In this document: positions 1,439 through 33,300 of the stretch, in pieces | Position numbering within the stretch: the stretch's first letter is position 1 | How the letters are laid out: every line of letters begins with the position of its first letter | IMG/VR virus record: IMGVR_UViG_3300037189_003789 | Span: 1-39,860 of that record | Direction: 5' to 3' (one strand) | Origin: a virus | Length of the DNA stretch: 39,860 nt | Position numbers and translations under genes: made by a program | Notes under the pieces: generated by a model | What the model was told of the DNA's origin: nothing | Database searches by the model: none | The model's input: the letters and a program-made list of their open reading frames with translations, nothing else

Positions 1439-3193
1439 TTATGCTACAGGGCCTGCGGCGCCGCCTGCTGGTCCGCCTGGTGCACCTGGAGTGCCGCCTG
1501 GGCTACCAGGAGCGCCTGCTTCTGACTCGGGAGTTTGCATATCTTCAGGTGCTGTCATATCTCCAGCCATACCTAAATCACCTTCTATACCGCTTGCACT
1601 CAAGCCTGCTGAACGTAATTCACCTGCGGCATCAGTGCTAGTAGGTTCGCCTTTGCCGTTTTCTTCTGCCCACATACGTTCGTTTTCTGCTACTTCTTCG
1701 TCTGTTAAACCGAGGAATCGTTTGGTAGCAAAACGCTTACTAATGTATGGAACAGCCTGTATAGTATTAAATGTATTAATACGTTCTGCATCCATGGATG
1801 CTTGCTTGCTTGATGCAAAGTTTAACGGAGGATTAAAGTTTAATTCAAAGATATTAGGATCTATATTAACACCTTTGCCGTACATATACATCTTAAATTC
1901 TTCGTCAAATACTGTGGTTATTAGGCTTTGTAGGCGTTCGCAGTACTTGTTAAATCGTAGTTCTTGTATGTAAGCAGTGCCCACACGACCGTCATTAAAT
2001 TGATTTTGACTGTCTTCTGCACCAGTTGGCAAGTAGCTTGAAGGTATACGTAAGCCACGGAATAACTTGTTAGTAAAGTACTTTAAATCGTCAATTTCAC
2101 CGATATTTTTACCGCCTTCTAGCATCTTAACATCACTGCCACGACCGTCTGCTGACTTAGGAAAGAAGTAGTCTTCGTTAATACTTAAAGGGTTGTAAGC
2201 AGAGTCTATAACATTATTGCCACCGCCTGTTTGGCTTGGAATTCTGCGTTGATGAATTTCATTTTTAACACGTTCTACAAAGGCCATTGCCAAGTGACTA
2301 GGCATATTACCTACATCAATACTGAACATACGACGCTCAGGAGCACGACTTATGCGATAGATTAAGATTGCATCTTCAATCAATTCTTTTTGTTTGTAGA
2401 CTTTGTAGACGTTTTCTAGCAATGAGTTACCAAATGGAAAGTTATTATCTAAACCTTCACTTAAACTAAGATGTACCACGTGTTTTGCATCTACTGCTGA
2501 TTCTTTCTGATTAAGACCAAAGCGGCTGGTGTTACCGGGTGTAGGACCTTTGCCACCGCCTGAACCACCGCTAGTGCCACTACCGGCAAAACTTCCCGAT
2601 GGGGTTGCTCCGCCACCTTGTCTTGGGCCAACTGTTGGCGTAATTTGCGTAGCTACTAGGTTTTCAAAGTTTGGTGCTAGATCTTTAACAATATACTGCT
2701 CAGGCTTTTTGCCTTCGCTTTCGTTAACAATAATTTTAATTAGATTAGCAGGATCCAAGTAAGTCCATTTTTGATTTTCCGGATCACGGATAAAAAATGT
2801 ATCACCGTATTTGAACACATTACGCACTATTTTAAAGATACGTACATCGAATTTTTGCACTTTGTTCCATTGACTTAGATACTCGCCTAGGATCTTTACT
2901 TCGGCATTAGTAGCTTTACTGCGCCATTTAACTGAGAACGGGCTCTTGCTATCTTTTAATTTCTGTGTGCAAAACTCTGCTAGAATATCCAGGGCCGCAT
3001 TAACTTCTGGGTCGCTATCCATGACTTCATACTGACCATAACGCTCAATACGATTTGGACTACCAGTGTATACGTCAGGCAAGTAACTTGAGTAGTTTGT
3101 CTTAGCCGGGCCCGGACGATTGCCGTTCTGCCCGCCGATAGGACTTATTTCGCCGTTAACTGGTACTGGTGTAAAGAATTTTTTCCAACTCAT
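1439..3193 (-). CDS. 20: Portal vertex protein gp20
   Basis: 584 residues (T4 gp20 is 524). The gene encodes the dodecameric head-tail connector that nucleates prohead assembly and conducts DNA. Diagnostic segments are RYGQYEVMDSDPEVNAALDI (about 51-70), KIVRNVFKYGDTFFIRDP (about 121-138), the DAKHVVHLSLSEGLDNNFPFGNSLLENVYK region (about 235-265), and the SYLPTGAEDSQNQFNDGRVG clip/stem region. Near the C-terminus, RINTFNTIQAVPYISKRF is followed by FLGLTDEEV, a classic gp20 ending. Unusual features are a Gly/Ser-rich insertion at about 189-222 and a Gly/Pro/Ala-rich C-terminal tail. The start ATG lies 6 bases after the stop of the upstream tape-measure-like gene, consistent with coupled translation. 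Confidence 0.95.
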   Translation of the reverse strand: MSWKKFFTPVPVNGEISPIGGQNGNRPGPAKTNYSSYLPDVYTGSPNRIERYGQYEVMDSDPEVNAALDILAEFCTQKLKDSKSPFSVKWRSKATNAEVKILGEYLSQWNKVQKFDVRIFKIVRNVFKYGDTFFIRDPENQKWTYLDPANLIKIIVNESEGKKPEQYIVKDLAPNFENLVATQITPTVGPRQGGGATPSGSFAGSGTSGGSGGGKGPTPGNTSRFGLNQKESAVDAKHVVHLSLSEGLDNNFPFGNSLLENVYKVYKQKELIEDAILIYRISRAPERRMFSIDVGNMPSHLAMAFVERVKNEIHQRRIPSQTGGGNNVIDSAYNPLSINEDYFFPKSADGRGSDVKMLEGGKNIGEIDDLKYFTNKLFRGLRIPSSYLPTGAEDSQNQFNDGRVGTAYIQELRFNKYCERLQSLITTVFDEEFKMYMYGKGVNIDPNIFELNFNPPLNFASSKQASMDAERINTFNTIQAVPYISKRFATKRFLGLTDEEVAENERMWAEENGKGEPTSTDAAGELRSAGLSASGIEGDLGMAGDMTAPEDMQTPESEAGAPGSPGGTPGAPGGPAGGAAGPVA

Positions 3194-6122: not shown

Positions 6123-6950
6123 ATGAGCACAAATCCATTACAAAAGTATTTTAGACAGCCAAAGATCTTTATCAAGTTACCATCTGGAGGAATTTATTCC
6201 AAACCCGGTACCGTACAGGGAGACGTTACGCACATGCCAGTCTACGGAATGACGGGCATGGATGAGATCATGATGCGCACACCAGACGCACTGCTAACCG
6301 GTGAAAGCACAGCTAATGTAATTGCCAGTTGCTGTCCTAACATCAAAGAAGCATGGGAAATCAGTGTTACAGATATTCTAATGATCCTCACTGCTATACG
6401 TATCAGTACCTACGGTAACACCATGCATGTGCAGGCTACCTGCACAGAATGCAGTGCAGAAAATGATTATGAAATGGATCTTAATCAAGTCATTGAACAC
6501 TATATGAACTGTCGTTATGAAAACACCATAGTGCTTGATCAGATGATAATAAAGACACAGCCTTTGACCTACAAGCGTAGTACAGAGTTAAATGTTAAGA
6601 ATTTCCAACTGCAACAACAGATGAATCAAGCGTTGAGTCTAGAAGATTCCGAAGAAAAACAAAAACAATACCAAGAAATTTTCAAAGCTATCAGTGATCT
6701 ACAGTTAGAAATATTAAAAGCCAGCATAGAAAGTGTAGAAGTTGACGGGCAGGTAGTTACCGAACGTAGCTTTATTGCCGACTGGTTGGGCAACTGCGAC
6801 AAATCTATTATTGATTCTATCAAAGATCTAAATCAACGCAACACCGACACTTGGAGTGTTCCCGAGTTTCGTGTAGAGTGTGATAGCTGTAACGCTGAAA
6901 ATAAAGTTCGTGTAGAGCTGGATGAATCAAATTTTTTCGTCAAAGCCTAA
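6123..6950 (+). CDS. 26: Baseplate hub / tail assembly protein gp26-like, with split zinc-ribbon motif
   Basis: 275 residues. Key features are IFIKLPSGGIYSKPG (about 15-29), MTGMDEIMMRTPDALLTGES (about 43-62), a VIASCCPNIKEAW segment (about 66-78) and a DILMILTAIRISTYG helix (about 84-98). These match the gp26 baseplate-hub family of T4-like phages, whose pattern is 'LPSGG...MTxxDE...RTPDAL...SC.P.I'. Two Cys pairs, C107-x2-C110 and C253-x2-C256, could together bind one zinc. The family is needed for hub assembly and probably chaperones the tape measure. The 3' end carries a U-UUU-UUC slippery run at 6932-6938, just before the stop, and the gp51 frame continues in -1. That makes it comparable to lambda G, with a longer 26-51 fusion made by frameshifting. 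Confidence 0.8.
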   Translation: MSTNPLQKYFRQPKIFIKLPSGGIYSKPGTVQGDVTHMPVYGMTGMDEIMMRTPDALLTGESTANVIASCCPNIKEAWEISVTDILMILTAIRISTYGNTMHVQATCTECSAENDYEMDLNQVIEHYMNCRYENTIVLDQMIIKTQPLTYKRSTELNVKNFQLQQQMNQALSLEDSEEKQKQYQEIFKAISDLQLEILKASIESVEVDGQVVTERSFIADWLGNCDKSIIDSIKDLNQRNTDTWSVPEFRVECDSCNAENKVRVELDESNFFVKA

Positions 6951-7171
6951 TCGGATTAGCATCAGACGAAATACAAAAACGTCTGGTTAGGCTAGATAAC
7001 GAAATCAAAGAATTCAAGCAAGAACTATTTCGCATCAGCTGGTATATGCGTGGTGGTGTAACTGTAGACGAACTACTGCACCTTTACAGTTACGAAGATC
7101 GTGACATGATCTATAATGTTATCAAAGATAACATGGAAGCTACTAAAGAAACTCGTATGCCATTACTATAA
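6926..7171 (+). CDS. 51: Baseplate hub assembly protein gp51-like, expressed as -1 frameshift extension of gp26
   Basis: The open frame from 6926 to the stop at 7169-7171 encodes ...SDEIQKRLVRLDNEIKEF, then ELFRISWYMRGGVTVDEL and a C-terminus ending KETRMPLL. The WYMRGGVT motif and the xxKETxxPL ending are characteristic of the small gp51-type hub assembly proteins placed directly after gp26 in aquatic T4-like phages. No ATG, GTG or TTG occurs in this frame before the ATG at 7046, which is inside the conserved motif and would give only 41 residues. A normal start is therefore missing, and expression by -1 frameshifting from gp26 (at 6932-6938) is the best explanation. A non-standard start such as ATC or ATA cannot be excluded. 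The frame is too short and start-less to appear as an ordinary ORF. Confidence 0.75.
   Translation: MKFFRQSLIGLASDEIQKRLVRLDNEIKEFKQELFRISWYMRGGVTVDELLHLYSYEDRDMIYNVIKDNMEATKETRMPLL
6929..6959 (+). promoter_or_regulatory. Probable programmed -1 ribosomal frameshift signal (gp26 to gp51)
   Basis: In the gp26 frame the codons read TCA AAT TTT TTC GTC. This creates two overlapping -1 slippery heptamers, A-AAT-TTT (6929-6935) and T-TTT-TTC (6932-6938). They fall inside the only 25-base interval (6926-6950) where both frames are open. A small hairpin, CTAAT-CGG-ATTAG (6947-6959), starts 8 bases after the slippery run, the usual distance for a stimulator, although the 5-bp stem is weak. Slipping here joins 26 to 51 as a 349-residue product. 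Confidence 0.7.
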
Positions 7172-7607: not shown

Positions 7608-8045
7608 TTATCCGTTAAGTTGTCTGCCTTTGATGTGTGATCCATGTACGCGAACCTGTATATGTCCGTTGTAGTAATCGTCTGATTCTAAAACTCGCCT
7701 GGAGAATTGCTCTCGTGCCTCTATATACGAGCATTCCGATTTTGAATTACAGTAGTAGAGTATGTCTCTTCGGAAGTGGTCGGTACCTAACTGCGTAACG
7801 TCCTTGGTCAGTTCAGGCGATGAACCATAATAGTCCTGCCAGTCTGAATCAATTTTGCTACGGATTCGTTTCTTTTTCTTTGTGCCGTTCTTTAACTTTA
7901 CAGTCTTGTAGGTCGTCTTACTGAATTTTGCTAGTTTTTTGCCTATGTACTTGCGCCCTGTTGTAGTATTCGTTATTAGATATACGAATCCCACACAGGT
8001 TTCGGGTAATGTTTCTACTAGTTGATCTGCATAGTACCATGACAT
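7608..8045 (-). CDS. SegE-type GIY-YIG endonuclease (homing-like)
   Basis: 145 residues from ATG 8045; an in-frame TTG at 8048 is not needed. The GIY-YIG core is visible as GFVYLITNTTTGRKYIGKK (about 18-36). A Lys/Arg-rich linker follows (NGTKKKKRIRSK), then SDWQDYYGSS (about 66-75), a DHFRRDILY strand, and the helix YIEAREQFSRRVL, whose Glu would be the metal-binding catalytic residue. It ends with DYYNGHIQVR. This order matches the putative SegE-like GIY-YIG nucleases common in T4-like phages. These are free-standing enzymes that cut DNA of related phages and promote spread of their own region. It is the last gene of the gp55-47-46 operon and starts 3 bases after the preceding stop. Confidence 0.8.
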   Translation of the reverse strand: MSWYYADQLVETLPETCVGFVYLITNTTTGRKYIGKKLAKFSKTTYKTVKLKNGTKKKKRIRSKIDSDWQDYYGSSPELTKDVTQLGTDHFRRDILYYCNSKSECSYIEAREQFSRRVLESDDYYNGHIQVRVHGSHIKGRQLNG

Positions 8046-8048
8046 CAA

Positions 8049-8312
8049 CTAGTTATTATCTTTGGTGCCTCTCCTAGTGCCTTTTTGAGCGCGACGAATC
8101 TTGCGTTCATCTAACTGCTCTCGTTTTTCTACTTGCCATTCTCTAATTGCCTTGCGTCGAGCCGAGCAGACATGGCGAATATCACTGAGCAAGTGCCGCA
8201 AGCGTATGGTGCTAGCATAGGTATCTTCAGCGAACCAGCGTTGATTCTCTTCAAAATATCTACGAAACACTCGCATCAACTCGGCATGTAGCTCTTCGTC
8301 TTTGTCAATCAT
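8049..8312 (-). CDS. Small basic helical protein, conserved hypothetical
   Basis: 87 residues. The N-terminal half is acidic/aromatic helical (ELMRVFRRYFEENQRWF). The middle reads ASTIRLRHLLSDIRHVCSARRKAIRE, and the tail is strongly basic (RRAQKGTRRGTK). The motif 'A-T-x-R-x-R-x-x-L-x-D-I-R...RRK-I' recurs in uncharacterised small proteins of many T4-like phages that look superficially histone-like. DNA binding is an inference from charge. The start codon overlaps the gp46 stop (ATGA), so it is translationally coupled to gp46. Confidence 0.7.
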   Translation of the reverse strand: MIDKDEELHAELMRVFRRYFEENQRWFAEDTYASTIRLRHLLSDIRHVCSARRKAIREWQVEKREQLDERKIRRAQKGTRRGTKDNN

Positions 8313-10087
8313 TCTGTTATTTCTAGGTCCGTAGCATAGCTAGTGAACCCGTTTTCCTTGATAACTTTTAGCACATTGTTCACACGTCCGATCAATTCAT
8401 CCTTGTGTGAGATTAAGAATATGTTCTTCTTGCGTTCTCGCGACATCTTCTTAAGTACTGCTAGTGCGCCTTCTACACCCGACGCATCAAGCCCGTTGTC
8501 TATCAATTCGTCAACAAATAACAGGTTAATTCCTTGATATAATGACTCCCAAACGTCTCTAAACGACCAACTCAAGCCCAGAATCAAGCGATTACGCTCG
8601 CCTCTCGACAGGTTATCAAAGTCTAGATCCTGCCCTAGCTGTGTGATTAACACGGATAAATCGTTTTGAAACAGCACAGAGTGCGGTAATCCCATCTTGT
8701 CTAGGTAGTAGGTCAAGCGATTATTGAGATAAGCAAGGTTCTGATCGATGATTTTCTTGCGAATAAAGCTGTCTTTTGACGTCAACAGCTTGAGCAAGAA
8801 CTCCTGATGGTCCTTCAAGCTGGACAATTCGTTGACTCGATCCCAAGAAACTGTCTGCATAGCTGTATGTTTAAGCTCGTCTATCTGTTCTTGATAGGGA
8901 TCTGACTCTCCGGCCTTGACTTCTAGCTGTGTTTCCAAGCTCTTTAGGTTGTTTTGATGCTTGAGTGCCTGCTCTAAGGTGTCATAATAGGTGTTAGGAC
9001 GCTGTGCTACTTCGCCGACTGAAGCGATTTCACCGATGATTAGAGCCAGATCAGCTTGGATTTTATCGTGATAGCTAGTGGCATCAGTCATATGAGTAGT
9101 GGCTTCTGCCGTCATAGACTCGTGTTTATGGTCATGTAGCTCTTGATCACAAGCGTGACATTTACGGTCTTGCAGTTTAGCAAGCTCGCTAGCGTACTTT
9201 TTTACGCTTCGCTCCGCTTGCGCTACCGCGCTATCTAGCGTAGCCCGCTCCTTATTCAGGCTTTTTAGCTTTGCCGACTTGTCGTCGTATACTTTTAGCT
9301 CCGCATGCTTCGCAAGCTCAGCTTCTATATCTACGCTTTCTAGTTCTACGATCGCACGAGCTATCTTCTCTATTTCATTATGATGTTGAGTATTCCATGC
9401 ACTTTGCTTGGTCGTCAAGCTATCAATACTCTTTTGTATACCTTCGTTGCTACGTTTAACTGCTTCTATATCAGCATTCTCTTGGAATATTTGATCTTTA
9501 GTTTCTTTTATTAGCTCTTTAAGTGTTTCTGCCTTCTCGCTTAACAGAGTAATGCCCAGTAACTGTTCAATAATAGCACGTTGATCATTGGCTTTCATGC
9601 TTAAGAACGGCTCAGTGTAGGTGTTAAGTGCTACGATATGCTTGAACATATCGTGGCTCATGCCAAGTAGATCGTCTAGATCCTTCTGAGTTTCACGCAT
9701 ATCGCCTTGAGCATCATCTGTTTCTTCAGCAGTTTGTGCCTGATCATTAACAAAGAACTGTAGCACATTAGGTTTGCGTCCACGTTCAATGCGATATTCA
9801 ATACCATCTTTTTCAAATGCCAATGTAACTAGCATACCTTTATTGTTAATCTTATTAACAAGGTTATCTTTTTTAATATTAGTCAGGGCATTGCCATATA
9901 ATGCAAAAGTTAATGCATTGACAATAGTAGTTTTACCTGTACCGTTACGTGAACCGCTGTCGTCACCTCCTTGATCTAAGTTTTCTCCTAGTACAAGTGT
10001 TAGATTTTTCTGCGCAAAGTTTACAGCCTGGGTTTGATTACCCACGCTCATAAAATTCCTAACGGTTAATTCCTTAATATTAATCAT
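8309..10087 (-). CDS. 46: Recombination endonuclease subunit gp46 (Rad50/SbcC-like ATPase)
   Basis: 592 residues (T4 gp46 is 560). SMC-type layout: N-terminal ATPase half with Walker A SRNGTGKTT (about 46-54) and a Q-loop region near NTYTEPFLSM (about 155-164). Coiled coil runs at about 180-305, broken by a zinc-hook CHAC (Cys about 310 and 313), with the returning coil at about 325-450. The C-terminal half holds the signature NLSRGERNRLILGLS (about 492-506), Walker B NLLFVDE (about 522-528) and the LISHKDEL H-loop. With gp47 it resects DNA ends for recombination-dependent replication, and in T4 it also degrades host DNA. Start and stop overlap both neighbours by ATGA, giving tight operon coupling. 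Confidence 0.95.
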   Translation of the reverse strand: MINIKELTVRNFMSVGNQTQAVNFAQKNLTLVLGENLDQGGDDSGSRNGTGKTTIVNALTFALYGNALTNIKKDNLVNKINNKGMLVTLAFEKDGIEYRIERGRKPNVLQFFVNDQAQTAEETDDAQGDMRETQKDLDDLLGMSHDMFKHIVALNTYTEPFLSMKANDQRAIIEQLLGITLLSEKAETLKELIKETKDQIFQENADIEAVKRSNEGIQKSIDSLTTKQSAWNTQHHNEIEKIARAIVELESVDIEAELAKHAELKVYDDKSAKLKSLNKERATLDSAVAQAERSVKKYASELAKLQDRKCHACDQELHDHKHESMTAEATTHMTDATSYHDKIQADLALIIGEIASVGEVAQRPNTYYDTLEQALKHQNNLKSLETQLEVKAGESDPYQEQIDELKHTAMQTVSWDRVNELSSLKDHQEFLLKLLTSKDSFIRKKIIDQNLAYLNNRLTYYLDKMGLPHSVLFQNDLSVLITQLGQDLDFDNLSRGERNRLILGLSWSFRDVWESLYQGINLLFVDELIDNGLDASGVEGALAVLKKMSRERKKNIFLISHKDELIGRVNNVLKVIKENGFTSYATDLEITE

Positions 10088-11097
10088 AGGCTACTATAAA
10101 TTTCCAGCAATTTGTTTTTGTCGTATGTTTCACTATCAATACTAATGATTTGATTACTTACAATTTGATCAATACTTTCAAATGCTTGAATATCTATATT
10201 TGTATTGATCTCAATCTCTTTCTTTTCTGCTATTAAGGTAAGTTCACGGATATCATAATCAGCAATAAACTTCTCTTTGATAAAACTTGCTTCTTCAAAA
10301 CTAATATCTATGTCTAATGCTACACGTAAATGTTGTTTAGGAAGTATAATTTCATCTGCACGGTCAATTAGTTCACTTAATTTTAGTGTACGGAACGTAG
10401 GTTGCCCTGGCCAACTATGATATGTAGGAGTTCCGTCCCACTCTAATATCATCATACCTCGATCGTCATCCCATGCATCACTATAGTTGTGCGGGAATGC
10501 ATTACCTATATAGATCATATTTTCATTTTGCTGGCGCTTATGGAAGTGCCCACTGAATCCTAATTCGAATCCTCTGAAAGCATCTACTTGTAATTCGCCG
10601 TGATCCGGCATTTGTACCATAGCATTCATAAAGAATTTAGGCAATTCGAAATGACCGAAGCAGTATTTGCCTTTCATATTCTTTATTCGTTTCCATTCGT
10701 CCCCAACAAGCCAGGGACATAGTGTAACACCGCCGATAGTAGTAGGCTCGTGTACAACAGTAACGCCGGGGATATACTTGCCAAATTCAACTGAATGAAT
10801 GTCTCGTTTATCTTTGTAGTACAAATCATGATTGCCGGGAAAAAAGTAAAAATTATCAAATGCTTGACCGAGTTTTTCCAAGGCACGTAAGCTATAATCC
10901 ATCGTAGTGATATTAAGACTATTACGATTATGATGCCAATCACCCATAAAGATACCTGTATCACAACCTTCCTCCTTGGCTTTTGCAATATACCAGTCTA
11001 CAAAGTCTTCGCAATCTTGGTTATGTACACTACTATTAGATTTAAGTCCAAAGTGTATATCCGTGAAGGCGGCAATCTTTTTAAACATATTACTCAT
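10084..11097 (-). CDS. 47: Recombination endonuclease subunit gp47 (Mre11/SbcD-like nuclease)
   Basis: 337 residues starting MSNMFKKIAAFTDIHFG. I chose ATG 11097 over ATG 11106 because AAGGA lies about 9 bases upstream; it would abut the earlier codon with no spacing. Metallophosphatase motifs in order are DIHFG (D13, H15), GDWHHNR (D53), GNHD (N89, H90), a GHFELPKFF segment, and SGHFHKRQ (about 190-197). It is the Mn-dependent 3'-5' exo/endonuclease partner of gp46 in double-strand-end processing. The start overlaps the upstream 54-aa gene stop as TAATG, and the stop overlaps the gp46 start as ATGA. Confidence 0.95.
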   Translation of the reverse strand: MSNMFKKIAAFTDIHFGLKSNSSVHNQDCEDFVDWYIAKAKEEGCDTGIFMGDWHHNRNSLNITTMDYSLRALEKLGQAFDNFYFFPGNHDLYYKDKRDIHSVEFGKYIPGVTVVHEPTTIGGVTLCPWLVGDEWKRIKNMKGKYCFGHFELPKFFMNAMVQMPDHGELQVDAFRGFELGFSGHFHKRQQNENMIYIGNAFPHNYSDAWDDDRGMMILEWDGTPTYHSWPGQPTFRTLKLSELIDRADEIILPKQHLRVALDIDISFEEASFIKEKFIADYDIRELTLIAEKKEIEINTNIDIQAFESIDQIVSNQIISIDSETYDKNKLLEIYSSL

Positions 11098-11261
11098 TAA
11101 TAACATTCCTTAACGATATAGTATGTAGGTTTAGGATATTTGTCTACAATATTGTTTTCTTTGATCCATTTGTTCATTGCCGGAGCATTGAAAAACATCT
11201 TATTAATGATAACTTTATGTGTAGCTGATTCTACAACACTGAGATAGTTACTTTTACTCAC
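11097..11261 (-). CDS. Small hypothetical protein between gp55 and gp47
   Basis: 54 residues from GTG 11261 (VSKSNYLSVVESATHKVIINK..., ending YIVKECY). The GTG is preceded by AAGGAG 9 bases upstream, lying inside the last codons of gp55, and overlaps the gp55 stop (GTGAGTAA). A TTG at 11279 would lengthen the frame but has no ribosome site. The sequence predicts a small alpha/beta fold with a KPTYYIVKE strand at the end. It is not recognised. The tight overlap with both neighbours argues that it is genuinely translated. Confidence 0.6.
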   Translation of the reverse strand: MSKSNYLSVVESATHKVIINKMFFNAPAMNKWIKENNIVDKYPKPTYYIVKECY

Positions 11262-12087
11262 TAGGTGCTTCTCCTTCAAATCGTTTTAGAGCGGCCGCAT
11301 GTTCGCCAGCACCAGTTCTACTATAACTTGGATTCATCCCGTTAATTTCTAAGATGTCATCGCGGATATTTTGATTACGTTTTTCTATATTAATGACACG
11401 TACAAAACTATTAGTAACAGCGGCAGTGAAATACGCAAACGGATTGTCTGATTTTGATTCATCGAACTGTAGTCCTATCTGCGTTAACTGTAAAATAGCC
11501 TGCCCTTTCATTTCATCGTTGTATGTGTATCCTCGAACATTGCCACGTGTGGCATATCGCTCGCATAACTTTAACATCATACGTGCTAGATTGTTAGTAA
11601 TTTGGCCAGCATCTTTATCAAACTTGCCTTTGACTAAATCGCCCTTCCAGTGACTTTTACCTACGCAAACTAGTTCGTCTGCATCGTTATATTTCCAATG
11701 TTGGAATGGTGGAAAATTTACTTTATCTCTATGATCGGCAAGACTCTTTGGATTCTTTTTACGAGTATTGTTAAGCGGAATATGATCAAATGTCATAACT
11801 CGGAAGACGACATCCGTTTTTTGTATCTTTTTATAGTCAACTTCGCAGTCTGCTTGTTTGACTTTTTCTCCGGCCTTTTTACGAGTAGCGTATTCTAAAT
11901 CGCCGATTCGTTTTGCTCGATTACGCTTGGCTTCTGCCACTGTACGTATGTTGATCTTCTCAACACTAGCTACAATCATATCATACTGGTGAAATTCTGG
12001 TTGGGTAAAGACGCAGTACGAACTTTTTGATTTGTGTATCTCTAACAACATATCCTTGTTGTTTAGGTAATTTACTTTAGCTGTCAT
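11254..12087 (-). CDS. 55: Late-transcription sigma factor gp55
   Basis: 277 residues, longer than T4 gp55 (185). The C-terminal part is the sigma region-2-like domain: ITNNLARMMLKLCERYATRG (about 157-176), GYTYNDEMKGQAILQLTQIG (about 180-199), then FDESKSDNPFAYFTAAVTNSF, which contacts the -10 element TATAAATA, and a VINIEKRNQNIRDDILE helix. The N-terminal 150 residues (INIRTVAEAKRNRAKRIGD; FRVMTFDHIPLN; KVNFPPFQHW) are the extension typical of this protein in aquatic T4-like phages. It directs host RNA polymerase to late promoters with the sliding clamp. The start at 12087 has GGAG 9 bases upstream. It is the first gene of the early/middle minus operon. Confidence 0.85.
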   Translation of the reverse strand: MTAKVNYLNNKDMLLEIHKSKSSYCVFTQPEFHQYDMIVASVEKINIRTVAEAKRNRAKRIGDLEYATRKKAGEKVKQADCEVDYKKIQKTDVVFRVMTFDHIPLNNTRKKNPKSLADHRDKVNFPPFQHWKYNDADELVCVGKSHWKGDLVKGKFDKDAGQITNNLARMMLKLCERYATRGNVRGYTYNDEMKGQAILQLTQIGLQFDESKSDNPFAYFTAAVTNSFVRVINIEKRNQNIRDDILEINGMNPSYSRTGAGEHAAALKRFEGEAPSE

Positions 12088-20800: not shown

Positions 20801-21376
20801 TGGGTCGCTAAAGGTGCTCCTCAGGACGGATCAGAGCCGCTACCGCCAAGTCAGAGTGAATTAAATACACTACTAGCACCTAATTTAAATCTAATTAAAT
20901 CAATATCAGATGAGATAATTTATCATCCGGTAAATTATACACTATTATTCGGAACAGCAGCCGACGCTAATTTACAAGCGACATTTGAAGTTATGATCAA
21001 TCCATCATCGGCAATAAGTTCAGCTAATGTTATTGCAAGGATATTAACAGCAATTAATCAATTCTTTGCACTTGAAAACTGGTCGTTCGGTGACACCTTC
21101 TACTTTACAGAGTTATCAACTTATGTAATGAATCAGTTAGCACCTGATATTACTGCATTTGTGATAGTTCCAGTGCAAACAGGTCAATATTTTGGTAGTC
21201 TATTTGAAATAACTTGTCCTAGCAACAGCATATTTTTAAGCTGTGCTACGGCAGCAAATATACAAGTAGTGTCGGGATTAACCAGCACTAATCTTAAAAC
21301 TGTAACAGGTACAGCACTAGCTGAAACAGTGTCTAGTCAACAAATCACTAGCGCAAATTATGGGGCAAATAGTTAA
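17864..21376 (+). CDS. 6: Baseplate wedge protein gp6
   Basis: 1170 residues, nearly twice T4 gp6 (660). The N-terminal block is the gp6/J-like signature: LLAEDWQKIYQSFRNADFQS (about 10-29), then a LRRTMIDYIRTNFPEDFNDY helix, SEYLALIDLIAFIGQS and AFRADLNARENFLELAERRD, and LRLARLVSYNARR. The middle region contains long beta-rich inserted segments (about 450-700, rich in Thr/Ser), which explains the extra length. The C-terminal part (YNISPLSANLQVAKVKAINR region and the final ANVIARILTAINQFFALENW helix) matches the wedge dimer core. gp6 forms the inner ring that holds the wedges and triggers sheath contraction. Confidence 0.92.
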   Translation: MSSTTRQNNLLLAEDWQKIYQSFRNADFQSYDFDNLRRTMIDYIRTNFPEDFNDYIESSEYLALIDLIAFIGQSVAFRADLNARENFLELAERRDSILRLARLVSYNARRTVAAQGLLKFTTVQTTENVLDSNGRDLAGQYVSWNDSSNPNWYDQFIKILDAAFPQQQQFGNPADSATIYGVPTAQYRFNANNKDVPVYSFSKTIAGRGMDFEITSTTFTGQTFIYEEAPKIANQISCIYKDDGYGAGSPGTGFFFNFVQGTLNTGTFTVSNPSTNQSIDINTQNINDSDVWLYDVNQSTGLEHTLWLKVPALTGNNVIYNSLNQTTSTIYAVATKVGDAVSLNFADGTFGKLPNGDFRVYYRVSNGLTYTINPSDIVNVSIAIPYISALGTSETLTIGLSLASSVINATASETNASIKQNAPQTYYTQNRMITGEDYNISPLSANLQVAKVKAINRTSSGISRYFDLTDPTGKYSSTNLFADDGVLYQQFYTTGTTFSASGTQITGAYVQGVIDNTVLLILEDPNLRNFFYSTFVTYTAASLNVSWYAVTSDSNSTSGYIGGATTKIPFAVGTYTLTDLSYVTAGAMIKFTAPAGKYFNTKQANAITTIPTIGGQPLVPANGASYLWARVVSVKGDGTASGTGTLSTGFGPIILSKEIPTGAVVSAVMPHFSTSLTTSVQTSMVDLILSNSTFGLRYDASSASWQIIFEQNLNTTSPFSLQYQGNNTNTQLDASWLLLFTTDTLTYTITERAVRYVFESDAEVTFYFDDTVKIYDVVQSNTVTDTIKILNINTQPDSAFPFTTDYHWQVVSESIGQDGYIDPKKVIITFADPSNSGVVDNPQQFLDIVAPSTNTLTKYIVEKKYEISLGQEDYKYVTNNPLTGPVIILPTQSAAYPVSQWTTGQYFYFVDSQVVVQYVPTSTTQQLQPTLDYKVYAGRDNLRFQYTHSASYDSRIDPGSSNIIDIYVLTHSYDMAFRQWVAKGAPQDGSEPLPPSQSELNTLLAPNLNLIKSISDEIIYHPVNYTLLFGTAADANLQATFEVMINPSSAISSANVIARILTAINQFFALENWSFGDTFYFTELSTYVMNQLAPDITAFVIVPVQTGQYFGSLFEITCPSNSIFLSCATAANIQVVSGLTSTNLKTVTGTALAETVSSQQITSANYGANS

Positions 21377-24300
21377 TGGCTAACAGTATTCTTCCACCCG
21401 GCGGACTTGGTGTAAACTTTCTTCCTGATTTTTATCAGACTCCGGCTAACAAAAAATTCCTGCAAGCTACAGTTGATCAATTATTTCAACCGGGTACAAT
21501 TACTAAGACCAGTGGATTTATCGGTCGTGAAAATGCTAAAGCCGCTACCGGCACTGATGTTTATGTAAAATCAGCTACTACTCCTAGACAAAACTATCAG
21601 CTAGAACCAGGCATAGTAATTAAGGATGAGTTAGATAACGTAAAGTTTTTTAAAGACTATCAGGACTATATTAATCAATTAGGAGTATTTGGAGCGAATA
21701 CTAGCAATCATGCTCGTTTAAATAAACAAGAATTTTACAGCTGGGATCCGCATATTGATTGGGATAAGTTTGTTAACTTTCAAAACTATTACTGGTTACC
21801 ATATGGACCTGACGCTATACGAATTTATGGTCAGCAAGCAACTGGCGTTAGTACATATACTGTAGAAATACAATCCGAAGGTGATGTTAACGAATATCTA
21901 TTCACACCTAACGGTCTAACATTAAATCCTACGATTAAATTATATCGAGGTCAGACCTATAATTTTAGTGTTACTAGTGACGCAAATCCATTTAGCATTA
22001 TGCTTTCTAGATCAACCGGTACTGGTTCGAGATACCATAGCGGTGTTGTTAATAATGGAGTAACTAACGGAATACTAACATTTACAGTTCCTATAGATGC
22101 TCCTAATCTACTATATTATCAAAGTGAATCTGATATAGCACTAGGCGGTGCAATAGAAATTTATGATTTCTTGGATAATTCATACATTGATGTAGTTAAC
22201 GAAGTATTAGGTAAAAAGAATTACAAATTAAGTAACGGGACTCAATTAAGTAACGGCATGAAAGTGGAGTTTGGTGGTAATGTAACCCCGGCTAGTTATG
22301 CTTCAGGCAAATACTATGTAGAAGGTGTAGGTACTGCAATTAAACTAGTGCCCGAGGCAATATTAGAAATAGTAACACCTTACACAAAAAACGAATCTAT
22401 AGAATTTGATGCAACACCGTTTGATGTTAGCCCGTTTGATGACGCCACCGGATTTGCCACTTTACAAGATTATGTAGTAATTAATCGTGCTAGTAAAGAC
22501 CATAACCCGTGGACAAGATATAATCGTTGGTTTCATAAAGATGTAATTATAACATCAGCAACTTATAACAACGATACTCCATCGTTAGATCAAACAGCTA
22601 GAGCAGTTAGACCAATTATAGAGTTTGAAGCAGATCTTAAATTGTTTAACATGGGTACTACTGCTACAACAGATATCGACTTAGTTGATGATTTTACTAC
22701 AGATGTATTTTCAGCAATTGAGGGCACGACTGGATATAATATAGATGGTGTACAACTAGTACAAGGACAGAAAATATTATTTTTAGCTGACACAGACCCT
22801 CTTGTACAAAACAACATATACGAAGTTGGGTTTGTTAATATCCAAGGAACTATCAGAATAACATTAACACAGATAGCAACACCGACTTTAAATCAATCGA
22901 CATTAGTATTACAAGGATTAGCAAATCAAAGTTTGATGTATTGGTTTAACGGGTCGACATGGATTAAAGGGCAACAAAAAACAAATACTAATCAAGCGCC
23001 ATTGTTTGATATAGTTGACGACAATGGTATAAGTTACAGTGACGAAATGACCTACACCGGTACTACATTTACCGGAACAAAATTATTTTCTTATGAACTA
23101 GGTACAGGGATTGCTGATAAAATTCTAGGATTCCCATTAACCTATCTAAATGTTGCGAATATTGGTGATATTGTTTTTAGTTTTAATTTAGCTACAGATA
23201 CTTGGAAATGGAAACAAAATGGTAGTACTGTTACAAAACAGATTAGTGCAGGATACTTATCAAGTTTAGATTATGCAGGTAACAAGATTTATATCAATGG
23301 TTGGCAAATTTGCAATACTACTACAACACAAGCGTCGGTAAGGATTTATAAAAATTCAGGATTAACAAATAAATTTAATCTTGATGTATACGATGATATT
23401 AACAATCTAACTGATTTAGAAGTAAAATTATATGTCAACGGCGTCCGCTTAGAACCTACTAAATGGACATTGGTAAAAAGAACAGATTATTATCAAATAG
23501 TTTTAACCACTCCTATAGAGCTTACAGATGTATTAACTATTAGAAGTTTTTCAGCACAGCCTATAAACGAGAATGGTTATTATGAAATTCCACTGAACCT
23601 ACAGAATAATTCTTTAAACAGCGATATCAGTACATTCACGCTAGGCGAGGTAATGGATCATGTTAATAGCATTATAGATAATATACCGCAGACATACGAT
23701 ACAACTCATAATAGTATTAGAGATTTAGGAAACGTTACACAATATGGTACAAAATTTGTACAGCACAGCGGCCCTCTCAGCCTTGCAATATACCATGTTA
23801 CTTCGGAATCTAATAATATCATCAAAGCATTAGAAACTGCTAGGGATGATTATAATTCATTTAAAAGAAATTTTATAGCTCTTGCAGGATCGCTAGGCGT
23901 TGATGCAACTTCGACTCAGTTAGTTGAATTAATTTTACAAAAACTCAACGCAAATAAACCTAATACGTCACCTTATTATTTTAGTGACATGGTTCCGTAC
24001 GGAGCTGCCACTACTACTAATTTAACCGTAGTTGATTATAGAATAAAAACATATCCGCTAACTGCTGTATTTTCTCTAGATAAATTAAGCAATAAGGCTG
24101 TTGGTGTTTACCAGACTAGTGTACTAACTAAAGTTAAAACACAATTAGCTTATGGTCGAGACTATACATTCAGTGACCAAGGGTTTGTTGTAATTAGCGA
24201 TAGCTTGGTTCTTACTAATGGCGATACAATCACAACTATCGAATATGATTCAACTGACGGTTCTTATGTACCGGCAACACCTACTAAATTAGGCATGTGG

Positions 24301-27300
24301 CCTGCATATATTCCTAAAATTTATCTAGATACTACTCTAGTTAATCCACAGAATGTAATTCAAGGGCACGATGGTAGTATTATTTTAGCCTATGGCGATT
24401 ACAGAGATGATTTAATTTTAGAATTAGAACTGCGCATCTTTAATAATATCAAAGTCAAGTACGATTCAACAATTTTTGATATCGGCAATGTAATCCCAGG
24501 ATATAATAGAAAGACCGATTACTCCTTATTAGAGTTTAATCAAGTATTAGCACCTGCATTTTATCAATGGTCCGGACTAGTTGGTATTGACTTTACACTA
24601 CCGTTGAGTTACGATCGTAGTAATCCGTTCACATTTAATTACTCGCAGGACGCGGCACCGAACCAGACAGCAACTCCGGGTTATTGGAGAGGTATATATC
24701 GTTGGATGTTTGATACCGATCGTCCGCATCTATGCCCTTGGGAAATGTTAGGATTCAGTGAAGAACCTACTTGGTGGGCCAGTGTGTACGGTCCTGCACC
24801 ATATACTAGTGATAATCTAGTCCTATGGGATGATTTAGCTACAGGCGCAGTGCGCCAGCCTGGGAAACCCTTAAAGGTATTAAGTAAGTATGCCAGACCT
24901 GTTTTAACTGGTCATATACCAGTTGATGAAAGCGGAAATCTATTAAGCCCGGCAAGATGCGGCCTAGCAACCGGATTGATGATAGCGAGTACCGGAAATG
25001 ATTTTGTATTCGGCGACGTTAGCCCAATAGAAGCTACATGGCGACGCAGTAGCTATTATCCATTTAGCGTAATAGTAGCTTCGATGTTATTAACACCTGC
25101 AAATACGTTCGGCATATTATTAGATAGATCTAGAATTGTTCGCAATCTTGCTGGACAACTTGTTTACTCTGATACAAACTTACGTATACAACCTGCCGAT
25201 GTTCTAATTCCAAGTGTATATACTAGCACAACTAGAGTACAAACTGCAGGTATTGTTAATTATATTGTTGATCTTATTTTAAATATTATCTTTAGTAATA
25301 ATCAAGATGCTTACAGATCATATCAATCAGATCTAATGGCACTAACTCCTCAGCTGAGTTATCGAATCGGAGCATTTACAAATCAAGATCAATTTAATCT
25401 ACTGTTAGAAAGTAAAACGCCATCGGCGACCGGCAGCGTCTTTATTCCAAAAGAAAGCTATAAAATATTTTTAAATTCGTCTAGCCCTACACAGAAGATT
25501 ACTTATAGCGGAGTTATAATTACAAAACTATCGAGTGGTTTTGAAATTAAAGGTTATAGTAAAACCCAACCGTACTTTTTCTACTTAGATTATATTGAAT
25601 CTGGAGTCGGAATAAATGTTGGAGGAATATCTGAAAGTTTTGTTACATGGACTACGGGTCAGCAATACATAATAGGACAAATAGTTAAATTTAATAATGC
25701 GTACTATAGAACAACTACAACTAATACAGCATCAACTAAGTTTAATCCTTCACACTTTGATGCATTATCAAGTTTACCAATAGTCGGCGGAGTTACAGCT
25801 AAGTTTAGAGATTCTTGGAATCGCACTACGGTTAAAGTTGCACCTTACGGCACACAGTTTTCTAGTGTGCAAGAAGTTGTAGATTTCTTATTAGGATATG
25901 AACAATATCTAACTGATCAAGGATTTGTCTTTGACGAATTTAACGAAAAATTAGAAGCAGTTGCAAACTGGTCCACTAGTGCTAAAGAGTTCATGTTCTG
26001 GACTACACAGAATTGGTCAACGGGTAGTACAGTGTGGGCAGATTGGATGCCGAACCAACCTTATAATTATAGTAGCATTGTACGATTCAACGGTAGTTAT
26101 TATAGTGCTCAATATAATATTCTTGCACAGGGAGATTTTGAAAGTACTCAATGGACATTGTTACCCGGTCTAAGCAATGTAGGTAGTAGTGTAATTAGTC
26201 TAAGCCCAGCAGCCAAGAACATAACATTTAATACAACACTAGCGGTTGTCGACGATATTAAAAATCCTTTTAATAGATATGAAATTTTTAAAGTAGACAG
26301 CACACCTATTCATCCCAATGAGCTAGACAGCTACAGAATTGGCAATACTGTTTCCTATAGCCCTCGTACTACAGACGGCATTTATTGCGCTAGTTTCTAT
26401 CTAATACAAAACGAACATGTGGCAATTATTAATAACGTAGATATATTCAACGATGTTATATATAATCCACCAAGCGGATATCGTAGAGAGCGTATTAAAT
26501 TATCTGGATATGTAACCGAAGGATGGTATGGCGGTTTAGATATTCCAGGATTTATATTCGATGGTGCTAAAGTACAAGGCTGGCAACCGTGGCAAGATTA
26601 TAACATGGCAGATGTTATAGCTTATCAAGGATACTATTATAGTGCTAACTCGTTCATTGCAGGATCTTCTACATTTACATCATCTCAATGGAATAGATTA
26701 TCAAAACAGCCATCTGCACAGCTAACTCCTAACTGGACTAACTCAGCTACTCAGTTTACAGATTTCTACGGACTAGAGATTGACAATTTTAATACACAGC
26801 AACAGGTATTTGCTCAACATCTAATCGGATATCAGAAGCGTCAATATCTTAATAATATAATACAAGATCCCGTAAGCGAATTTAAATTCTATCAAGGCAT
26901 GATACGTGATAAAGGTACACAGAACGTACTTAATCATTTGTTCGGAGTACTTAATGCAGATAAAGTTGAGAGTCTAACATTCTATGAAGAGTGGGCAATT
27001 CGTGTTGGACAATACGGCGCTTCTAACGCATTTGAAGATTTTGAAGTTATTATCGATCAAAACAAATATAAAAATAATCCCCAAGGCTATTACCTATCAA
27101 GTTCTTCAAACAATAATATCAGTTATACTATAAACCAACTAGTGCCAAATGACATCTATATTAAACCGTTAGGTTATAATAGTAAGCCATTTCCAATATT
27201 AACAACTGCTAAACAGTTCCTACGTAGTGCAGGTTATGTAAACCCTATTGATATTACCTATAATATAGGTTCTTTTGATCATATCTACGATACTGATTCT

Positions 27301-30300
27301 AACGGAAATCTAAAATATCCTGTATCCGGAATCGGTAACGGACAGTATATATGGACATCATTTAACGTTAATAGTTGGAACGTTTATAGATTTACAGATT
27401 TACAAATTCGTGTTACTAATGTAGTCTACACTTCAGATACAAAAACATTAACTATCACTACACAAAATTTAATTCCGATTAGTGTGGGAATGTATGTTGG
27501 TCTAGTGCAAGTTAATAGTATAGCAGGATTTTATAAGGTTACTAGTGTAAGTTTAAATTCCTTTACAGTAGTCAGCCCGTCTACTCTAGTAGTACCGTCA
27601 CCGTTTACACAAACTAGTCAGCTAGTAGTCTATGCATTAACTCCCCAGAGAGCAATATCTATAGACACAATTGATACTGTGTCGTTATCACATTTAGATC
27701 CTGGAACTCTTATCCGGACTGACGATTCTGGTAATGGCACTTGGGCAGTTTGGCAATATAACAGCGTGTATACTACACAAGATATACCTGATGTATCTCC
27801 GTCAACTAATTTTAACTTTGGTTCTAGTCTATCAGTTAATAGACAATCATCAATACTAGCAGTCGGCGATAGTCAAGGCTCGGTTTTAATGTATGATAAA
27901 GCTGGAACATCAGTTAAGTGGATAAGACGAGGATCAATCACTTCACCATTTATATCAAATAATGGCCCGATTACATCAAAACAAATTGCATCACTTTCAG
28001 CAATAAGTGATGACGGCACATGGTTGGTTACCGGAAGTCCATTTGCTGGTTATGCCGCCACTGCATATAAAGGAACCTATAATAGCAGTTTAACTTATCC
28101 TATTGATAGTATAGTTTCTGTTCAGAACTCTACAAACAACTATTCATATTACCAAGCTCTGAGAGCAGTACCAATAAACACAGTACCGACTAATGCAACC
28201 TATTGGTTCAAAGCACCGTACATCCCTGTAAGTAAATTATCGGGAACAGATTCGACATTAGCAGGACAAGGTGTTATTAGTATATACTTAAAAGATCTAG
28301 ACAATAATTATAATCTAATAGACACTATCGTTAGTCCTTTACCTGCCGCCAATGAACACTTTGGATCTAGTTTTGCATTTGGTAACAACAGCTTGTATGT
28401 AGGCGCTACTGGATACAACAATGGTGCTGGCCGAGTTTATAAATTATCATACACTACAACTGTACAGGTAACTACGCAATACAATCCAGTTGGTAGCCTA
28501 AATAGTATACTAGCAGTTAGTTCAACTAGCGGCATACGTGCCGGAATGATAGTACAGGGTAAAGGATTTACCAAGGGTCAAATTGTAGAAGCTGTGTTAA
28601 GCCCGACTACATTAAGTTTAAGCGGAACTCCGGATACAGGTGTTGTTCCGACCGGCATACTTAAATTTGTAACTAATAGTTGGACATACGATTGGAATGA
28701 AAATTATGTAGGCACAGCCTCTAGTGCATTAGGTACTAGCATTTCGACTAGTACAAATGCATCAACTCTTGCAATCACGTCAACCGGAACTGTACATATC
28801 TATAAAAACACCGGAAGTAGCATGATAGCATTGCCTTCGATAACAGGCAGTGATTCCTACTTTGGTCAAGGAGTAGCTGTATCACCCGACGGCAACTATA
28901 TTGCAATTTCTAATGATACCGAAGGAGTAGTAAGTCAAGCTGGCGGAGTAACGATATACTCATATACTAATGGTAGTTATACATCATATCAGACACTAGT
29001 AAATCATCGACCAGAGACTAACGGGTTGTTCGGCAATAAACTAGCATTTATGTCCGACAATACTATTGCGGTCTATAATAAAAACGGCGATAGTAAAATA
29101 ACTACAGGGTTTGATAATAACACTACAACCTTTGATAAAAAATCTACTAATTTTGTAACATTAGAAGTAAACAGCGGCCGAGTTGATGTTTATGATAGAT
29201 ATAATACCAAGTGGGTCTTCAGTGAAAGCCTTAAATCAACTAATCTTCCTAGTGACGGATATGGCACTGGATTCGCTGTAGGCTCTAATCAAATAATAGT
29301 AAGTGCACCAAATGCTACTGATCAAAGCCTAGCATCTGGTCTAGTGTACAGTTACGGAAAATCTGACGGCGCTTACTCTTGGTCTCAATATGAAAAACAA
29401 GACCTAGTTGCCGATGTTAGTAAAATTAAAAAGGCATTCTTATATAATAGAAAACTAGGAGAACTAGTAACTTATCTTGATATAGTTGACCCATTACAAG
29501 GTAAGATTCCTGGACCGGCACAAGAAGAATTAACCTATCAGACATTTTACGATCCTGCCAACTATTCATACAGCGACGAAACTATAGAGAGCGCAGTAGT
29601 TGATACTAATGCATTCTGGGCAGATCAGGAAGTTGGTCAACTTTGGTGGGATTTAAGAACTAGTAAATTCTTAGAAAATAACTTTGGAGATCCAGCATAT
29701 AGAAATAGTGCATGGAATACACTTGCACAAGGTGCTAGTATTGATATCTACGAATGGGTTTCTACAAACTTGTTACCAGCTAATTGGGATATTCAAGCAG
29801 ACACTCCAGAAGGCATAGCTATGGGTATTAGCGGTAAGAGTTTATACGGTAATTCTGCCTATAGTGTAACACAAGTGTATGACAACATCAGTAAGTCATT
29901 TAGAAATACCTATTATTTCTGGGTTAAAAATAAACGACTAGTGCCGCCAAATGTTAGCGGACGACACATGGCCGCCACTGGTATAGCATCGTTAATTGCT
30001 AATCCAAGAAGTCAAGGGTATACATGTTTAGCTATTACAGGGGTAGATTCGTTTAGTCTAATAAATGCCGCACAATATCTAAAAGGTACTGATGTAGTAC
30101 TAGCTGTAGAATATTGGACGATTGACAAAGTTGATCAAAATGTTCACAGTCAATGGAAGTTAATTAGCAATGACACATTAGTAAACTTGCCGAAGGATAT
30201 TGAACAAAAATGGTTTGATAGTTTATGTGGCTCCGACAGTGCCGGTCGTTCAGTACCCGATCCTGCGTTACCAGTTAAATTGCGTTACGGTATTGAAAAC

Positions 30301-33300
30301 CGTCCACGTCAAAGCATGTTTGTTAATCGTATCGAGGCTCTAAAAGAATTTATTGAGAGTGTTAATTTAATTCTAAGTACATATCAAACAACAGAACTAA
30401 GAGATATTAGTCCGTTAGAAAGATATGAACCAATTCCTAATGTAATCTACGGCCTGTATGATGCCGCCGTTGACACCTACGCAGAGCTTGTATATGCTAG
30501 TATTGGATCATTCTCATCTGCTACAGTAACACCGGTGATAGTTAATGGAAGTATAACAGGTATTAATATTATTAATTCCGGTAAAGGTTATGTAAATGCA
30601 CCGTATATTATGATCTCAGGATCAGGCACAGGCGCAAATGTACGTGCAATAATTAACACTCTAGGAGAAATTACCGGAGCGAAGATTATCAACGGAGGCA
30701 ACGGGTATAACATTAATACTCAGTGTTCAATACGTAGTTACTCAGTACTTGTTAATAGTGATGAGACTGCAGGTAATAGTTGGAGTATCTATTCATATGA
30801 TACTATGACAAACTTGTATTCTAAAGTGTTAACACAATCATACGACGTTCGAAATTATTGGACTTACAGAGATTGGTATTCTACAGGTTATAATCAATTT
30901 AGTGCACCTGATCTAACAGTTGATAATTTTGTAGATTTAAACACAGCACAAGATTTGTTCTTCCGACTAGCACGTGACGGTACCGAACAACCGGGCCAGC
31001 TAATCAAAGTTTTAAACGGCAATTCAGGAAAATGGGTGTTGTTATATAGATACTCAACTGTAATTTCAGTAGACTGGACTCAAAGTTATCAAGTAGTTGG
31101 TATACAGGATGGTACTATACAATTTAACAGTGATTTATATAAATTTGCCGGCACAGTTATTGGCTATGATTCTAATATTTTTGACAATGCAGACTTTGAC
31201 GTTCAGGCGAATGCAGAATTACGAATTATATTAAACACTATTAAGAATAACATATTAATTGAAGATCTTAAAAAGAATTATTTAGATTTATTTTTAAGCA
31301 GTCTCCACTATGCACATAGCGAACAGCCATTTATTGATTGGGCCTTTAAGACTAGTTTTGTACGAGCAACACATACTGTTGGAACTCTCAACCAACCAGT
31401 TAATTATCCAGTCGATAACTTAAGAAATTTCCAAGATTATGTTTCGGAAGTTAAACCTTATAGAACTAAGGTTAGAGAATATATCAGTCAATACACCGGT
31501 GTTGACACAGACCATAGTGCAGTTACAGACTTCGACCTACAACCCAACTATACAAATAATAGGATTAGACCAGTTGAAGCAACTTATTCAAATAATAGTA
31601 TAAGTGTAGTAGATCCGGCGATTCGAACATATCCTTGGAAGTTTTGGAATGATAATGTTGGATTTAGTATAACTGAAATTAAAATTGTTGACGGCGGCTC
31701 TGGCTATGCAAACATACCAGAAGTAATTATTAGTATGCCAACTGGTCCTAATTCGGTACCTGCTACCGCGGTTGCCTACATTACTAACGGCAAGGTCAAT
31801 AGGATCGTACTAACTAACATCGATCAATATGGTAGTGCAGGAAAAGGTTACTTATCTGCTCCTACAATAACAATTAATGGCGGATTAAACATAGATGGAG
31901 TTGCCGCTAAAGCTGTAGCAATTATTGGTAATAGTGTAGTACGATCAAATCTTACAGGATTACGTTTTGACCGTGTTAATCAAACTTATTACTTGGCAAA
32001 TTTACAGCAAGTAGATAGATTTAAAGGTACCGGTTCTCGACTACAATTTAGTTTGTCATGGGCACCAGATATACGTGCCGGCCAATCTAGTGTAACAGTT
32101 AATAGTATTCCTGTGCTTAGGGAATTATATACCTTAGCAACAGTTACATCTACATCTGCAGGATATACACAATATACAGGAAAGATTACATTTGTTACAG
32201 CACCTGCCGCGGGATCTTCTGTAGTAGTAACTTATAATAAATCACAAGATGTATTAACAGCTTCGGATCGTATACAATATTATTATAATCCAACAACCGG
32301 ACAACTAGGAAAAGACCTTACCCAACTAATGACTGGTGTCGATTACGGTGGAGTTATAGTCAGTGGGTTAGGATTTAATATTGCAGGCGGCTGGGGAGCT
32401 AGTCCGTATCTTACAGACTCTTGGGACAGCAGACCTGCGACCTTTAATGATTATGCAGTCCAAGTAGGAGCAAATACGCACGATTTTATTTTACCGTTTA
32501 CACCTCCTGTTGGAACAGCAATTAACATCTATTTTTCAAGACTAGTAACACAATCGTACACGTCGGATGGTGTTAGTACACAGTATGCATACGATTCTAC
32601 TTTACAAAATGTATCAGCAACTGTTGTATCGACTACTACTACAACAACAGTTACTACAACTTATATTACATCGGAAGTTATTAACGGAACAACTATTAAG
32701 AGTGGCGGGTATACACTACTAGTCGCTAGTACCGTAGGAATTGTGCCCGGCATGATTGTTAAAGGTACTGGTTTTTCAAAGAATCAAAAGGTAGTCAATG
32801 TAATTAATTCAACAACGCTGACTATAGATAATGTAGCTGATGGGTTCCCGTCAACTGACGAAGTTCTAACTTTTTCTAATATAGCTGGTAGTTTTATCTT
32901 AACAGTTGCTAGTACTTCAGGGCTAGTAGTAGGGGATATAGTAACCGCTACTGGTACAAGTAGTACAGCCTTTGCATACGGAACAGCGATTACAGCAATT
33001 AATTCTTCTAATTCTGTTACACTTAATCAGATTTTATATTCAACTATTGCATCCGGAACAACGATAACATTTACACAAAATCTAGTTGAGCCGACTACAG
33101 TGGTTATTAATGCGTCAGGAACAATCCAATTACTCCAAGCATACCCGGCAGGAAGCACAATTAATATTATCGGACAACGTCTTCCTGTGAGATTAGACGA
33201 TCCTCACTATGGACTAGTAGCTACTAGTACTTGGGCACCTGGTACTAACTATGCAATCAACAGTCTAGTACTAGTTGATAGTATTTCTTATATTTGTAAA

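Follow-up and report, generated by a model that had tools for sequence, protein, structure and literature searches.

The gp26-type gene of the virus sequence analysed here very probably gives rise to a short and a long T4-type tail assembly chaperone by programmed -1 ribosomal frameshifting, a pair like lambda G/GT. The sequence is a 39,860-base virus record, which was taken as a whole (the window) and is probably a fragment. An initial annotation had proposed that gp26 and a 26-51 fusion are made by -1 slippage. Relatives, codon-level constraint, and a covarying RNA stem support this proposal, all at the level of sequence.

The features of the locus lie on the plus strand. The gp26-type gene, predicted to encode a short tail or hub assembly chaperone (TAC-N-like) of 275 aa that contains two conserved CxxC pairs, occupies 6123..6950, from ATG at 6123 to TAA at 6948-6950 as read directly. 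The -1 frame is open at 6926..7171, between TGA at 6923-6925 and TAA at 7169-7171. From 6932, beyond the slip, it encodes a 79-aa C-terminal extension (FFRQSL...PLL). Direct reading bore out the 25-nt overlap of the two frames given in the initial annotation, and also the absence of ATG, GTG, and TTG in the -1 frame upstream of the ATG within WYMRGG. The predicted frameshift product (6123..7171, TAC-NC-like) has the length of 349 aa claimed for the joined frames, comprising 270 zero-frame and 79 -1-frame residues. Two nested slippery heptamers had been noted in the overlap, and both are in the zero frame of gp26. T_TTT_TTC at 6932..6938, the likely slip site, conforms to the X_XXY_YYZ pattern of -1 frameshifting; A_AAT_TTT at 6929..6935 is probably accessory. 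A stem-loop follows at 6944..6993, in which 6944-6956 pairs with 6981-6993 around a 24-nt loop, and the gp26 stop codon lies inside it. The hairpin of the initial annotation is real, and the spacing of 8 bases stated for it holds from A_AAT_TTT (about 8), but not from T_TTT_TTC (5-6 nt).

Relatives were sampled from IMG/VR through the downstream frame (80) and through gp26 (16 loci). T_TTT_TTC was found in the gp26 zero frame within the overlap at every one of these loci. IKFFRQSL was one of the six seeds in the downstream-frame search; the gp26-found loci used none of that region and gave the same result independently of it. An automated set of 134 distinct gp26 3' ends, spanning window-like viruses, jumbo phages, cyanophages, and others, contained T_TTT_TTC in 131 genes, T_TTT_TTT in two, and neither in one (Cygsa01). 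A second in-frame T_TTT_TTN elsewhere in the gene was present in only 6 of 130 gp26 genes, against 133 of 134 with T_TTT_TTN in the overlap; the overlap heptamer is therefore above chance. The isolates with T_TTT_TTC include Atu_ph07, Phosso, 121Q, RaK2, GAP32, PA5oct, CBB, Munch, Hallingskeid, and Vibrio 2.275, and also the cyanophages Sf-FS3 and S-PM2, Schizotequatrovirus VH7D, Chrysonvirus phiAS5, Rhizobium IC12, and Acidovorax ACP17. The variant T_TTT_TTT is found in XacN1 and Stenotrophomonas CM1, and T_TTT_TTG in Rhizobium RL38J1. A_AAT_TTT, which needs an AAT codon before TTT and an A before that codon, occurred in 37 of the 75 genes of the window-like set and in none of the cyanophage-type set. 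It was rejected as the main slip site because it is missing from distant relatives in which T_TTT_TTC is present. In the alignment of gp26/gp51 junctions from relatives, a check suggested with the initial annotation, the -1 frame, its lack of a start codon, and the slippery run were retained jointly.

The nucleotides around the slip site are conserved beyond what the proteins explain. An NNT codon always precedes the run, although eight different amino acids (N, S, D, T, H, R, Y, and A) are encoded there. The codon that follows the run is nearly always GNN with a variable amino acid, so that the -1 frame retains FFR in 128 of the 132 genes whose extension is complete. Among 60 window-clade sequences, the codon identity at positions with the same amino acid was 1.0 at the three slip positions and 0.7-1.0 at the core stem codons S5, L6, I7, V19, and R20, compared with about 0.2-0.6 at comparable nearby positions. 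The sequences are related and non-independent and are hence given without a p-value; the argument lies in the codon-family changes and in the breadth of lineages.

The stem of the window has a folding energy of -17 kcal/mol (z = -3.75), and none of 200 shuffles was equally stable. It comprises 11-13 bp and starts 5-6 nt 3' of T_TTT_TTC, within the distance of about 5-9 nt expected for a stimulatory structure. Over the 70 nt after the heptamer, the mean z of the window-like set was -2.9, whereas control segments taken from these genes averaged -0.22. The corresponding values for the post-heptamer segment of cyanophage-type genes were -1.5 and -0.4. Covariation was evaluated with 58 window-clade sequences aligned without gaps, in which 89.8% of the stem cells paired. 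Both sides had changed in 47 cells, versus 25.6 in shuffles, and 0 of 500 shuffles reached this count. When the partner was slid by 1-3 columns, pairing fell to 14-51%. RNAalifold recovered the identical stem. Two loop-proximal pairs are weakly kept, and two window-clade members (L035 and L037) keep the heptamer with a weakened stem from which pairs have been lost. In our estimate it is evenly poised whether the two overlapping heptamers and the conserved, covarying stem of 11-13 bp with its loop of about 24 nt, located inside the extension, form a clade-specific stimulatory element that sets the short:long ratio; such an element may be new for T4-type tail chaperones.

The short form is homologous to T4 gp26/gp51 through PF12322 (E=6.7e-13, 49.3 bits, cut-off 24.5), and the gp26-type protein also matched phrog_150 (baseplate hub, E=4.6e-18). 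C107/C110 and C253/C256 were invariant in an alignment of 53 sequences. Its AlphaFold2 model (pLDDT 88.7) matched T4-like baseplate hub assembly proteins in a structure search of a viral library. Weaker structural matches of the same model were proteins of ~450-690 aa from other jumbo phages (Erwinia Special G, phiEaH2, and Ralstonia RSF1), which suggests that chaperones of this kind may go unnoticed in those phages as larger proteins. The extension has 14 invariant residues in a 57-sequence alignment, and its AlphaFold2 model (pLDDT 91) is all helical. It had no Pfam or PHROG profile match. Foldseek against the PDB returned nothing for the gp26 part or the extension, and no genuine match emerged when PDB sequences were searched with a profile; no solved relative is therefore known. 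When the Vibrio 2.275 extension was scanned against viral contigs, no relative was confirmed.

The name "gp51-type" given to the downstream frame in the initial annotation can be kept in the sense of a probable remote homology to the C-terminal part of T4 gp51; the frame corresponds to the extension only and lacks a Pfam or PHROG match of its own. The cyanophage -1 extension matched the C-terminal part of T4 gp51 with a probability of 97.8 (E=4e-12), and the jumbo extension matched T4 gp51 moderately (probability 70.6). The window-clade extension alone did not match T4 gp51 in hhalign (probability 0.1), and fusion profiles and intermediates were required to link the two. It matched the jumbo extension with a probability of 99.9, and the whole fusion profile was colinear end to end with the cyanophage fusion, FFR on FFR (probability 99, E=1.6e-18). 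On the basis of this chain from the window clade through the jumbo phages to gp51, and of the colinear fusions, gp51 is probably the counterpart of the predicted long form and gp26 that of the short form.

In PMC3004832, T4 gp26 (208 aa) and gp51 (249 aa) figure as chaperones of hub assembly. Both matched PF12322 (E=9e-64 and E=4e-52, respectively), as does the short form here, and are thus paralogues. The idea of 26/51 as a frameshift pair does not extend to T4 itself, where the two are separate, divergently transcribed genes on opposite strands without a frameshift, and only gp51 has the C-terminal extension. RB43 also differs from the window in having 26 and 51 as separate genes in tandem. 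In RB43-type phages (L196 and L199), the gp51-type and gp26-type genes are tandem on one strand, in contrast to the divergent pair of T4. The likeness to lambda G/GT consists in one gene that is predicted to yield a short and a long tail chaperone when ribosomes slip by -1 shortly before the short frame ends. No sequence-level relation to G/GT is claimed, and, unlike in lambda, an adjoining tape-measure gene was not recognised: Pfam and PHROG profiles found no tape-measure protein among the profiled ORFs of the window. Gene 26 of T4 is likewise not adjacent to 29.

It is very unlikely that the extension is instead a separate small protein, made from a non-standard start or by re-initiation after the gp26 stop, with an incidental slippery run. 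GenBank does annotate the downstream frame of several phages as a small gene of its own (121Q_595, GAP32_242, and S-PM2 gp51), and in 55 of 57 cyanophage relatives an in-frame ATG is conserved five codons past the slip, from which a free extension could also be made by separate initiation. The heptamer is lacking in a few lineages, namely Cygsa01, Vibrio K444, and Ackermannviridae Cba120. The first two have an overlapping TAATG start for the extension, and in Cba120 the -1 frame is open without a canonical slip heptamer; the extension may be made by another route in all three. However, a standard start is absent from most members of the window clade: before extension codon 35, 56 of 62 have no ATG, and 37 of 62 have no ATG, GTG, or TTG. 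Conservation of FFR reaches upstream of every usable start, the T run is fixed at synonymous positions while amino acids change, and the distance of the covarying stem is that expected if it stimulates frameshifting. In T4 gp51, moreover, the extension belongs to one protein.

Slippage of RNA polymerase, which would miscopy the T6 run and join the frames in part of the mRNA, is extremely unlikely. A homopolymer of six T, with an A in front of it in many members, is the kind of run on which it might occur. Polymerase slippage usually requires a longer run, and drift in length would be tolerated, whereas the run is six long and C-ended throughout the set except in two genes. The covarying downstream stem is expected for ribosomal rather than polymerase slippage. 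A single-base shift beside a homopolymer, which joins the two frames into one protein, would also result if a sequencing error or gene decay had split one ancestral fusion gene. The likelihood of this is negligible, as the same arrangement was found in independent contigs and isolate genomes that together number well over 100.

For programmed -1 ribosomal frameshifting, we infer the slippage, its efficiency, and the chaperone function of the products from the observed anatomy, conservation, codon constraint, and covariation. Most ribosomes would end at the gp26 stop and release the 275-aa short form. The stem-loop 5-6 nt downstream would hold up a minority, which would slip back one base on T_TTT_TTC, with the tRNAs on TTT and TTC re-pairing with TTT and TTT. 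The slipped ribosomes would make the 349-aa long form with the helical C-terminal extension. On the model of lambda G/GT, the two forms may coat the tail tape-measure protein in assembly, and the extension may recruit tail-tube or baseplate-hub subunits.

The initial annotation knew of no described case in T4-type 26/51 genes, a statement that did not stand. Vladimirov, Gautam, and Davidson (2022, Virology 566:9-15) identified T4-like tail assembly chaperone genes. In a passage of PMC12846349 that cites this work, polyT -1 frameshift signals are described in TAC-N genes of T4-like phages, and a passage of PMC10885494 that cites it mentions some T4-like phages with separate short and long genes. 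To the extent that these passages reflect the 2022 study, the window locus is a further example of a frameshift type already reported in T4-like phages since then, sharing with it a PF12322 short form, a polyT -1 slip site at the 3' end, and a conserved -1 extension. The overlapping A_AAT_TTT and a 79-aa extension remote from T4 gp51 are features of the window clade's own. Modest additions may lie in the wide occurrence of the heptamer among jumbo phages, in the covarying stem, and in the mis-annotation of the extension in many records. Since one slip heptamer is widely conserved across T4-type phages, the frameshifted gene may be ancestral and the separate 26 and 51 of T4 derived. G-T frameshifting is described as widely conserved with T4 excepted (Atkins et al., 2016; PMC5009743), and the conservation of the heptamer bears on this long-standing exception. 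The conserved extension frame is wholly unannotated in the RefSeq records of RaK2 (L098) and PA5oct (L100), and is annotated as a separate hypothetical gene from a later ATG in GAP32, CBB, Munch, and others. Because many jumbo phage and cyanophage records split off or miss the extension, their predicted long chaperone form is absent from databases.

In profile searches, the gp26-type gene of the window was surrounded by T4-type genes. These include portal gp20 (1439-3193, minus strand, PF07230), SbcC/SbcD-like 46/47 (8309-11106, minus), a late sigma factor (11254-12087, minus), and gp53-, gp5-, gp25-type, and other baseplate genes on the plus strand. The long ORFs next downstream of the gp26-type gene are on the opposite strand. 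The ORF at 7608-8048 (minus) matched phrog_447, which is named NAD synthetase, and also several homing endonuclease families; the name of the phrog looks wrong. Immediately after the baseplate wedge genes, a single open frame of 5337 aa with an ATG start occupies 21376-37389.
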